This document shows, in pieces, positions 6,129 to 8,669 of a DNA stretch of 33,126 nucleotides. The stretch spans positions 1 to 33,126 of the forward strand of contig JAAEZN010000034.1 in assembly GCA_018222835.1 (NCBI GenBank), written 5' to 3'. Source of the stretch: Algicola sp. (lineage in GTDB: Bacteria > Bacteroidota > Bacteroidia > Flavobacteriales > Flavobacteriaceae). Positions within the stretch are counted from its first letter, which is position 1, and each line of letters begins with the position of its first letter. Below the pieces are notes generated by a model. The model searched no databases. It was given only the letters and a program-made list of their open reading frames with translations, and was not told where the DNA came from. Made by a program: the position numbers and the translations under genes.

Positions 6129-8669
6129 CTAGCTAATATAATTCCAAATGGTTTTGTTGGCCATCATTTTGGAATAAGCATTTAAAATAGGTGCATTTTC
6201 CACTTTTTCCAATTTTGGGTCGTCTTTCAATAGTTGGATGGCATAGTAACGGGCTGTTTTCAAGATTTGATTGTCCTTTATAATATCCGCAATCTTAAGA
6301 TTGAGCATACCGCTCTGTTGCGTTCCCATTAAGTCGCCTGGTCCACGAAGTTTTAGGTCAACTTCCGCAATCTCAAAACCATCATTGGTACGTACCATGG
6401 TCTGTAAACGGGTCTTGGAATCGTCGGAAAGTTTGTTGCCCGTCATTAAAATACAAAAACTTTGTTCTGCGCCTCGGCCCACACGTCCGCGAAGCTGGTG
6501 TAATTGGGAGAGGCCAAAGCGCTCGGAACTCTCAATAATCATCACGGAGGCATTGGGAACATTCACGCCCACCTCGATTACCGTAGTTGCAATCATAATT
6601 TGGGTTTCGCCCTTTACAAAGCGTTCCATTTCATAATCCTTATCGGCAGGCTTCATTTGCCCGTGCACAATGGAAATTTGATACTCGGGCTGAGGAAAAT
6701 CACGAGCAATACTTTCATAACCATCCATTAAGTCCTTGTAATCCAAAGCTTCGGATTCTTGAATCAGTGGATATACAATATAGATTTGCCTTCCTTTTTT
6801 GATTTCATCTTTGATGAAGCCGAACACTTTCAATCGGTTACTGTCGAACCTATGCACCGTTTTTATGGGTTTTCGGCCAGGTGGTAGTTCATCTATGACC
6901 GAGATGTCCAAATCCCCGTACAGACTCATCGCCAAGGTTCTTGGAATAGGGGTGGCCGTCATTACCAAAATATGGGGGGGTATGGCCCCTCCATCCTCCC
7001 CAACGGGGAGACTATTGAGCACTTCCTCTATTCTTTTCACAACTGAATCTATGGCTCCGATGACTTCTTCATTTTTAAAACGAATTACCTTGTAACCAAA
7101 ATCGTTCAGTATGGCTGTGCGCATAGCATCAGCTTCCTTTTGCATTGGGTCGTTGTGGTATCCGCCATCAACTTCTACAATCAGTTTTTTGTGTAAGCAG
7201 ACAAAATCAACAATAAATTCATCAATAACGTGCTGTCTTCTGAACTTTGCACCTAGCTTTTTTGTCCTTAATTGCTCCCAAAGAATACGTTCTGCTTCCG
7301 TACTGTTCTTTTTGCCTTGCTGTTGGAACTCTTTTAAGATTTTATAGGTTGAAGGTCTGGCAGTTTGATATTTATACCGGATTTCTTCCACCCTCCCTTT
7401 GGGAGGGAGCTGGGGTGGGCTGCCTTTTTTCCACAATTTAGACCGTTGCGCCACACCAAAACGGTGTTGCTCGTCCACAATGGCCAAGCCGAGGTTTTTA
7501 AATTGGACTTTGTCCTCCAAAACAGCGTGGGTACCTACCAAAATGTTCAAGTTCCCATTTTCCAGTTGATTGTGGAGCAAAGTGCGCTCGGATTTCTTGG
7601 TAGAACCTGTCAATAGGGCAATTTTAACCTCCATATTCTCCAAAAGCTGCTTGAGACCGTTGTAGTGCTGTGTCGCTAGAATTTCGGTTGGGGCCATCAA
7701 GCAGGCTTGAAAACCATTGTCAATCGCCAAAAGCATACACATTAGTGCTACAATGGTCTTTCCCGAACCCACATCGCCCTGAAGAAGTCGGTTCATTTGA
7801 GCGTTGCTGCCCAAGTCGTTGCGGATTTCCTTAATAACACGTTTTTGTGCTTCGGTCAATTCAAAAGGCAAGTGGTTTTCAAAGAATTCGGTAAACTTTT
7901 CTCCTACGGCTTCAAAGGGCATCCCTTTAATTTTTTGCTTTCGCTGTAAATTTTGGGATATCAGTCGCAATTGCACAAAAAACAGCTCCTCAAACTTTAA
8001 GCGGAACTGTGCTCTGGCCAACAATTCCTGATTTTTCGGAAAATGAATATTGAAAAGGGCTGAACTCTTCGAAATCAATTTTAATTCTTCCAAAATGACT
8101 GGAGATAAGGATTCTTGAAACTTGCCTTGGCATTCCAAGAACAATTGTTGGATCATTTTACCCAACACTCTGTTGGTAATGCCAAAATTCCCCAGTTTTT
8201 CGGTCGAGGGGTAAATGGGCTGCATCACTATCTTTAATCCTTGCTGATGCTTTTGTAAGGTCTCCATTTCAGGATGGGGCATCGAGAATGCACTTCCGTA
8301 TTTGTTAACCCTGCCAAAGACCACGTAGGGTTGGTTCAGGTTTAAATTTTCCTTGATCCATTTGTGGCCTCGGAACCAAACCAGATCCATTTGTCCCGTT
8401 TCATCAACAAAAGTGGCCACTAAACGTTTTCCCCGTTTTTGCTCAACTGTTTTTATATGGACAATTTTACCTACAACTTGAACATCGGCACCACTGGGCT
8501 GCAACTGATTTATTTTGTAATAGCTCGTCTTGTCCAAATAGCGGTTAGGGAACAGATGGAGAAGGTCCCTAAAGGTCTCAATGCCCAATTCGGCCTTTAG
8601 AACATCGGCCCGGTTTGGGCCAACGCCTTTTAAATATGCTATGGGAGTTTGTAGAAAATTGGGATTCAT
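6129..8669 (-). CDS. recG: ATP-dependent DNA helicase RecG carrying an in-frame DUF559 nuclease-domain insertion
   Basis: RecG remodels stalled replication forks and branch-migrates Holliday junctions. The order is the N-terminal wedge/OB region (about 1-200), the DEAD/DEAH helicase lobe with Walker A GDVGSGKT (298-305) and motif II DEQH (399-402), motif III TATPIPRT (571-578), the C-terminal lobe with ATTVIEVGVNVPNA (694-707) and QLRGRVGRG (725-733), and the C-terminal TRCF-like hook. Total length is 846, against about 700 usual for Bacteroidota RecG. The extra 146 residues (about 417-562) lie between motifs II and III in a loop and form a DUF559 (Vsr-like PD-(D/E)XK) domain. All helicase motifs are present and no stop or frameshift interrupts the frame, so the protein is probably made and active. 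It is divergent from the M1 peptidase gene (46 bases between starts). The start MNPNFLQTPIAYLKGVGPNR is standard. Confidence 0.95.
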   Translation of the reverse strand: MNPNFLQTPIAYLKGVGPNRADVLKAELGIETFRDLLHLFPNRYLDKTSYYKINQLQPSGADVQVVGKIVHIKTVEQKRGKRLVATFVDETGQMDLVWFRGHKWIKENLNLNQPYVVFGRVNKYGSAFSMPHPEMETLQKHQQGLKIVMQPIYPSTEKLGNFGITNRVLGKMIQQLFLECQGKFQESLSPVILEELKLISKSSALFNIHFPKNQELLARAQFRLKFEELFFVQLRLISQNLQRKQKIKGMPFEAVGEKFTEFFENHLPFELTEAQKRVIKEIRNDLGSNAQMNRLLQGDVGSGKTIVALMCMLLAIDNGFQACLMAPTEILATQHYNGLKQLLENMEVKIALLTGSTKKSERTLLHNQLENGNLNILVGTHAVLEDKVQFKNLGLAIVDEQHRFGVAQRSKLWKKGSPPQLPPKGRVEEIRYKYQTARPSTYKILKEFQQQGKKNSTEAERILWEQLRTKKLGAKFRRQHVIDEFIVDFVCLHKKLIVEVDGGYHNDPMQKEADAMRTAILNDFGYKVIRFKNEEVIGAIDSVVKRIEEVLNSLPVGEDGGAIPPHILVMTATPIPRTLAMSLYGDLDISVIDELPPGRKPIKTVHRFDSNRLKVFGFIKDEIKKGRQIYIVYPLIQESEALDYKDLMDGYESIARDFPQPEYQISIVHGQMKPADKDYEMERFVKGETQIMIATTVIEVGVNVPNASVMIIESSERFGLSQLHQLRGRVGRGAEQSFCILMTGNKLSDDSKTRLQTMVRTNDGFEIAEVDLKLRGPGDLMGTQQSGMLNLKIADIIKDNQILKTARYYAIQLLKDDPKLEKVENAPILNAYSKMMANKTIWNYIS
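6985..7010 (+). repeat. Right terminal repeat and hairpin of the DUF559 element
   Basis: Read inward on the plus strand the end starts GCCCCTCCATCC, then a 6-bp hairpin CTCCCC (6996-7001) with GGGGAG (7005-7010), 3-base loop. This mirrors the arrangement at the other end (terminal GCCC, about 12 bases, hairpin). It codes for SLPVGEDGGA on the minus strand. Confidence 0.7.
7391..7420 (-). repeat. Left terminal repeat and hairpin of the DUF559 element
   Basis: The coding-strand element begins GCCCACCCCAGC and then a perfect 7-bp hairpin, CTCCC-family palindrome CCCTCCC (7391-7397) with GGGAGGG (7401-7407), 3-base loop. The composition is very GC-rich against A+T-rich surroundings. It codes for SPPQLPPKGRV. 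Confidence 0.75.

Follow-up and report, generated by a model that had tools for sequence, protein, structure and literature searches.

A DUF559 nuclease block inside RecG of Algicola sp. as a candidate homing-type element retained unspliced in core proteins of Flavobacteriaceae

The window analysed here (33,126 nucleotides of Algicola sp., contig JAAEZN010000034.1 of assembly GCA_018222835.1) carries a recG gene with a block of 148 residues, encoding a DUF559 nuclease domain, inserted in frame between the sequences for helicase motifs II and III. Judged by the empty, filled and scarred sites of related genomes and by inserts that are less diverged than their hosts, the RecG block is a mobile insertion and not a fixed fusion. 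The block is probably a homing-type selfish element with a Vsr/EDxHD-like DUF559 nuclease, which persists unspliced in linkers of core proteins.

The RecG fusion gene and the inserted block

The Pfam matches of the 846-residue fusion to the RecG wedge, DEAD, Helicase_C and RecG_dom3_C surround a match to DUF559 (PF04480) with an E-value of 4.5e-33 and 113.8 bits against a cut-off of 20.6, as had been recognized in the first-pass annotation, which was made from the sequence and placed a DUF559 domain at this position. Relatives with an empty site read WHK-NQT-PPHILVMTATP where the RecG of the window reads WKK-(148 residues)-PPHILVMTATP, a net gain of 435 nt or 145 residues, and these empty sites bear out the claim of an in-frame, protein-coding insertion in a tolerant loop. 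The annotation also held that RecG of Bacteroidota has no domain at this place, which has to be corrected, as the RecG of other Flavobacteriaceae also carries DUF559. An assembly artefact, which had been named as a possible refutation, is excluded because the same insert is found at the same place in 6 of the 71 genomes of the window's genus that were searched with its protein sequence, as well as in Maribacter and other Flavobacteriaceae. No ATG lies upstream of the core within the insert, and an internal GTG (GRVEE) is present; the nuclease is likely made solely as a RecG fusion. The features of the gene are given in Table 1.

An intein or intron, removed before or after translation, would suit the in-frame position near conserved motifs and the homing-nuclease relatives of the domain. 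Against it, no intein (Hint) splicing domain was found among the Pfam matches to the fusion at E-values up to 0.01, and no intron family in an RNA-family search of window positions 6700-7700 at E-values up to 1, where the sole match at the insert site is a small RNA below threshold (18.4 against 36.7 bits). This explanation was rejected on these grounds and has practically no chance of being correct.

The only other match to the DUF559 family in the same genome, L003 (G000:C33:30891-31016), was considered as a second copy of the insert and rejected, as its sequence reads as a stand-alone Vsr-type endonuclease.

Table 1. Features of the recG fusion gene and of the insert, in window positions.
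Feature	Position	Strand	Basis
recG fusion gene, 846 codons and stop	6129..8669	-	Open frame; RecG domains flank the insert
RecG residues 1-415, as far as the loop following motif II (DEQH)	7425..8669	-	Alignment with empty-site relatives
Inserted block, residues 416-563, in place of 3 residues of relatives	6981..7424	-	Site empty in 46 of 58 genomes read
Left (5') end, hairpin arms 7391-7397 and 7401-7407 with outer arm	7391..7421	-	Sequence; inverted-partner counterparts elsewhere
Stretch with catalytic-type residues E460, D488, E499, D501, H505, D514	7128..7292	-	119 of 122 in-frame copies retain all six
DUF559 nuclease core, residues 447-551	7017..7331	-	Pfam PF04480 and genome search
Right (3') end, outer arm with hairpin arms 6996-7001 and 7005-7010	6984..7010	-	Sequence; partly preserved at the scarred sites of relatives
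RecG residues 564-846 and stop, starting at PPHILVMTATPIPRT (motif III)	6129..6980	-	Alignment with empty-site relatives

Empty, filled and scarred sites

The RecG junctions were read in 58 genomes, comprising 57 of a 60-genome sample of the genus (G002, G013 and G037 were unreadable) and G063. Six of these sites are filled, 46 are empty and six have a short in-frame leftover, such as WKKGSPNSSEDGGAIPPHIL, which retains bits of one or both element ends; such remnants could have arisen by deletion or by insertion of a single end. The first-pass annotation had reasoned that the same domain in all near relatives, with ordinary vertical divergence, would argue against mobility, and the 46 empty and six scarred sites are the opposite of that picture. 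On a host tree built with a quick method, the filled, empty and scarred sites are scattered, and well-supported branches require at least seven switches between the empty and the non-empty state. The corresponding sites in MetH and LeuS are filled in 2 and 5, respectively, of the 70 genomes searched, and the reading frame is intact in every junction read (58 for RecG, 30 for MetH and 30 for LeuS).

The recG of genome G050 (L261) has two open frames, of 206 and 530 residues, which correspond to a frameshift or a sequencing error. At the LeuS insertion point, palindromic repeats of other kinds also lie in frame in Flagellimonas genomes (L299-L323), with the readings LDAERSRSDQ, VTSSAVEKP or SEKLRVSESENSELKTQNS, and the LeuS of the window's own genome (L311, G000:C107) reads LDAERSRSDQDVTSSAVEKSQES there; this point appears to attract in-frame repeats from unrelated families, as a hotspot would.

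Divergence of inserts and hosts

The paired alignments show that the insert has passed from species to species while its host gene did not follow. In the Maribacter pair L070/L071, the insert is 96.2% identical and recG 78.2%, identity drops to 81 and 80% in the 60-nt bins directly next to the insert, and the synonymous difference is 0.14 in the insert against 0.66-0.91 across 104 host windows of equal length. Within the window's genus, the pairs L005/L007 and L006/L007 have values of 0.18 and 0.22 in the insert, whereas their lowest host windows are at 0.52 and 0.60, respectively. The insert lies below all host windows by more than 0.05 in 16 of 351 RecG, 12 of 465 LeuS, 9 of 136 MetH, 1 of 21 HsdR and 0 of 21 IleS pairs, which share sequences and are not counts of independent events. 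These pairs also settle the divergence part of the annotation's reasoning on mobility in favour of movement, with inserts much less diverged than their hosts in several cases. The contrast is no general rule and is confined to some pairs: most have none, and in an initial count the synonymous difference (pS) of the insert was not below that of the host in 61 of the 73 RecG pairs with host pS below 0.65. The ratio of nonsynonymous to synonymous change (dN/dS) of the insert is 0.05-0.20 in the listed RecG pairs where it is computable, and the nuclease is therefore under purifying selection as a protein.

Vertical inheritance with loss, plus occasional homologous recombination of recG alleles and no special mobility, would account for the many pairs without contrast, for the correlation between host and insert protein distances and, as traces of loss, for the scars. 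However, homologous recombination would bring the flanks along, which is not what the steep fall of identity next to the L070/L071 insert looks like, and the two copies within one methionine synthase, at different sites, are sisters. This explanation is contradicted by the edge and window comparisons and is very unlikely as a complete account, although it could still explain most older pairs. Because most pairs are without contrast and the two distances correlate, older vertical descent is mixed in with the movement of the insert.

DUF559 inserts in other core proteins

With a profile of 11 inserts, 395 genomes of the phylum and 397 genomes of Flavobacteriaceae were searched. Among the matches listed for the family genomes, the 54 best (at least 154 bits) are all in open frames of at least 573 residues, one of them with a stop, and most of those below 138 bits are stand-alone frames, a split that is favoured by the profile having been built from in-frame copies. 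One hundred fetched stretches and the earlier loci were grouped into 127 domain-carrying frames, duplicates included. These loci were chosen by an open frame of at least about 300 residues, with at least 20 listed rows of 250-600 residues left out, and the following host counts cover the fetched stretches and earlier loci and are not a census. The hosts include LeuS (34, at two sites), RecG (33), MetH (19, at two sites), IleS (7) and HsdR (7), and with fewer copies PglX-like, HemF, IcmF, RecB-like, HsdM-like, ValS, HemD and HisF proteins, as well as single cases. Host names were taken from NCBIfam and Pfam matches of representatives, of which the RecB-like, HsdM-like and PglX-like ones fall under the NCBI cut-offs; L172, L177 and L178 have methyltransferase matches below threshold only, and for L166 and L171 there is no host family. 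L196, a methionine synthase, carries two DUF559 copies, at two sites. Removal of six duplicate loci, with the second MetH copy of L196 adding one, leaves the 122 inserts used for the counts of residues and flanks. By these profile matches, the DUF559 insert occurs in many core proteins and in several families of Bacteroidota. A search in other housekeeping proteins had been suggested in the first-pass annotation, and the finds in LeuS, IleS, ValS and MetH mean that the insert is not specific to RecG. A viral source was also considered: 75 stretches of viral_contigs fit a search pattern, one of which encodes a relative with 44% identity over part of the domain.

The annotation had added that such a fusion would put a nuclease on a fork-remodelling enzyme. 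As the point of the fusion this is unsupported, because the same family is found in tRNA synthetases and methionine synthase, where this logic fails. In a broader form, a host-adapted fusion would give RecG or other hosts a useful activity in fork or restriction-like processing, in line with the purifying selection on the insert and with several hosts that are DNA enzymes (RecG, HsdR, PglX-like and RecB-like). The patchy presence within one genus, the movement of the insert without its host and, again, the metabolic and translational hosts speak against such an adaptation, which is given little credence here.

The domains of the inserts fall into site-specific groups, as expected of the homing-type element proposed above. 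In a tree of 142 domains, 31 changes of site label are required, against a minimum of 25 and a shuffled mean of 97.2. The support of this tree is modest (140 columns, a quick method, long branches flagged by the program and 59 of 138 inner branches open). The RecG inserts form one group except for L075, the MetH group includes the second-site copies and the copy of an M23 peptidase, a RecB-like copy falls among those of LeuS, the two copies of L196 are sisters, and the HsdR copies form two separate groups. Stand-alone copies, nearly all from the window's genus, are placed apart from the in-frame copies of housekeeping genes in 18 of 20 cases. The clustering of site labels with few crossovers is the pattern of elements that keep coming back to one site and occasionally establish another.

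Terminal fusions of DUF559 are also among the copies (HemF, HemD, HisF, RnhA, HisD, PurL-like and FGase), and these may represent read-through of stand-alone genes rather than insertions. DUF559 lies in frame ahead of the start in L175, L179 and L180 (HemF), L173 and L176 (HisF), L226 and L227 (HemD) and L181 (RNase H), and these N-terminal joins may be genuine fusions or simply genes upstream that happen to lie in the same frame. Restriction-modification hosts recur, with HsdR in L230-L232, L165 and L167-L169 and methyltransferase-like proteins in L160-L163, L170, L172, L177 and L178; a functional link between the domain and these hosts is conceivable.

Element ends and dispersed repeats

The ends of the inserts are G/C-rich palindromes, translated as Pro/Gly-rich linkers. 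Defined by the common part of the two MetH sites, the left end reads AGCCCCCC..CCCCC-AAA-GGGGGAGC and the right end is its inverse. An inverted flank pair is detected in 70 of the 122 inserts (p<0.02 against shuffles) and in 14 of 31 at LeuS site 1; the inverted orientation wins over the direct one in 95 inserts, ties in 6 and loses in 21, a signal partly due to the self-complementarity of each hairpin. In 92 of 122 inserts, the own flank pair scores higher than 20 pairs taken from other sites do on average, and 6 of 20 stand-alone DUF559 copies have a detectable inverted pair.

The MetH-type end is dispersed in 44 of the 397 Flavobacteriaceae genomes, and none was found with the reversed-pattern control. 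In-frame copies are present in 22 of these 44 genomes against 22 of the 353 genomes without the end (Fisher p 1.6e-12), and any DUF559 in 34 of 44 against 89 of 353 (p 2.2e-11), both tests ignoring relatedness; with three genomes set aside whose sole copy is the element end, the in-frame comparison is 19 against 22 (p 6e-10). G840 has an element with both ends, about 162 bp long, that lacks DUF559 (L324, about 871-1032). Single ends without DUF559 are found in L325 (about 1041-1063), L326 (about 952-974) and L327 (about 1040-1066): one lies in frame within a membrane protein, one extends a C-terminus and one falls in frame close to where a metH frame begins. The RecG-type end is present as a single copy in the window's own genome. 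A LeuS-like end pattern is not clearly above its reversed control over 70 genomes of the genus, with differences in single genomes (11 against 1 in G001); it lacks one base of what the RecG-type end would need, and the result does not apply to that end.

These repeats could belong to a palindromic element similar to repetitive extragenic palindromic (REP) sequences or miniature inverted-repeat transposable elements (MITEs), moved in trans by another hairpin-acting enzyme, with DUF559 as cargo or accessory and with site preference as a matter of tolerance. The dispersal of the MetH-type end against an empty control, the DUF559-less ends inside or beside other genes, the sharp edges of the inserts, the absence of a DUF559 match at an E-value of 1e-25 from 10 of the 44 repeat-bearing genomes, and the acceptance of other palindromic repeats by the LeuS site are all compatible with this. 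However, the repeats co-occur with DUF559, site-specific insert clades are unexpected from a generally targeted transposase, and the RecG-type ends are single in their own genome, so that movement by another enzyme is considered rather unlikely.

The nuclease and the proposed mechanism

The window copy has all six catalytic-type residues (E/D/E/D/H/D), as do nearly all in-frame copies (Table 1), and these match Vsr-type active sites according to the residue list for Caulobacter VsrA in PMC12907096. The closest solved proteins by sequence are 3hrl (E-value 5e-27) and then 3r3p, the homing endonuclease I-Bth0305I (5e-6), and the closest by fold (Foldseek) are 3hrl, 3r3p (6.5e-5, 3.0e-4) and, more weakly, Escherichia coli Vsr (0.03). 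Modelled alone, the insert takes a Vsr-like form with a mean pLDDT of 76; the AlphaFold model of the whole RecG fusion, from an 11-row alignment, is too poor to interpret (pLDDT 52.8, pTM 0.27). A homing-endonuclease model of PADLOC matches weakly (E-value 9.4e-6), beside two other nuclease or defence models, and the PHROGs matches are weak; besides DUF559, the only match of the insert is to the overlapping nuclease family MTES_1575, below cut-off. A DUF559 gene of Thermosynechococcus was assigned to the EDxHD homing family in 2022 (PMC9403480), and a DUF559 protein of Caulobacter was treated as a mismatch-repair nuclease in 2026 (PMC12907096).

It is proposed here that the element consists of the DUF559 nuclease frame bounded by inverted, hairpin-forming, G/C-rich ends, with one open frame throughout, and that it would settle in variable linkers of core proteins, mostly adjoining conserved motifs. 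As no splicing apparatus is present, the insert would remain in the finished protein as a tolerated domain, with its ends serving as Pro/Gly-rich linkers. The nuclease, produced within the host protein, would cut or nick empty alleles that are met after DNA transfer or that persist, and repair would copy the element into the cut allele, from which internal deletion or recombination with empty alleles could remove it again. The sites in RecG, MetH and IleS are linkers between highly conserved windows (shares of positions as good of 0.05, 0.03 and 0.02), which fits the need of a nuclease that reads conserved flanks. Movement and selection on the nuclease are shown as far as sequence comparison can do so, and DUF559 itself is predicted to drive the movement and to cleave empty alleles. 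A wider proposal, held only tentatively, is that of unspliced homing elements with hairpin-repeat linkers and gene-specific sites, kept as permanent domains, in which the same nuclease would drive hairpin repeats of Bacteroidota as RAYT does for REPs.

Several observations weigh against this reading. No separate DNA-binding domain was found by Pfam on the insert, and the internal GTG might serve as the start codon of a free nuclease beside the fusion. At the main LeuS site, the left flank shows no special conservation (0.56). Many inserts have no detected inverted flank pair, with 7 of 27 RecG copies having one, and the ends occur without DUF559 too. The insert lies above all host windows in 1 RecG, 9 LeuS, 0 MetH, 3 HsdR and 0 IleS pairs, and the Spearman correlation of host with insert protein distances is 0.78 over 351 pairs. 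Finally, the identity profile at the insert edges has no visible co-conversion of host flanks, the usual trace of break-repair homing, and these sharp edges, together with the DUF559-less ends, would also be compatible with a transposition-like process acting on the hairpins.

In the openly licensed literature searched (CC0, CC BY, CC BY-SA), no description of such in-frame, unspliced DUF559 elements was found. Homing nucleases usually hold positions in conserved genes through a self-splicing intron or intein (PMC3943268). The nuclease described here appears to persist in conserved genes unspliced, which, if true, would be another survival route for selfish DNA in essential genes. It would also offer naturally occurring cases in which an inserted domain is tolerated, and scars of such elements would account for some of the Pro/Gly-rich indels that recur in conserved proteins. 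The question of a homing element living unspliced becomes directly testable.

Comparison with known systems

The insert resembles the EDxHD homing endonucleases in its profile and fold matches to I-Bth0305I and in its patchy, site-specific occurrence beside conserved coding sequence. Movement into empty alleles of one site, which characterizes that group, is indicated here by the empty and filled sites, the low insert divergence and the site clades. Known EDxHD members occur in introns or inteins or as free-standing genes, with long DNA-binding regions (PMC3943268); the insert of 148 residues differs from them as a catalytic domain alone, which would stay in the host protein. It has the same domain and catalytic-type residues as other DUF559/Vsr-like nucleases (PF04480; NGO0050, 3hrl; E. 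coli Vsr; Caulobacter VsrA), whereas those are encoded by separate genes, and the Caulobacter one was proposed for mismatch repair (PMC12907096).

With REP/REPIN and MITE repeats the elements share short dispersed hairpins, present singly and as inverted pairs, but here the pair frames a nuclease gene, and the ends begin with a run of C instead of the GTAG or CGTC tags named in PMC3733652. Inteins, too, lie in frame close to conserved motifs of core proteins and carry a nuclease, and the present insert differs in having no splicing domain. Rickettsia palindromic elements insert in frame in protein genes and are retained in the product. The insertion in frame is shared by the DUF559 elements, for which retention in the mature protein is expected from the absent splicing domain; the Rickettsia elements are short and are not known to encode a nuclease domain. 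Where homing genes are fused to rps3 or atp6 of fungal mitochondria, a nuclease frame is joined unspliced to the host frame, and the enzymes are of the LAGLIDADG type and located mostly at gene ends. In contrast, the DUF559 insert is internal, bacterial and found in many unrelated genes.

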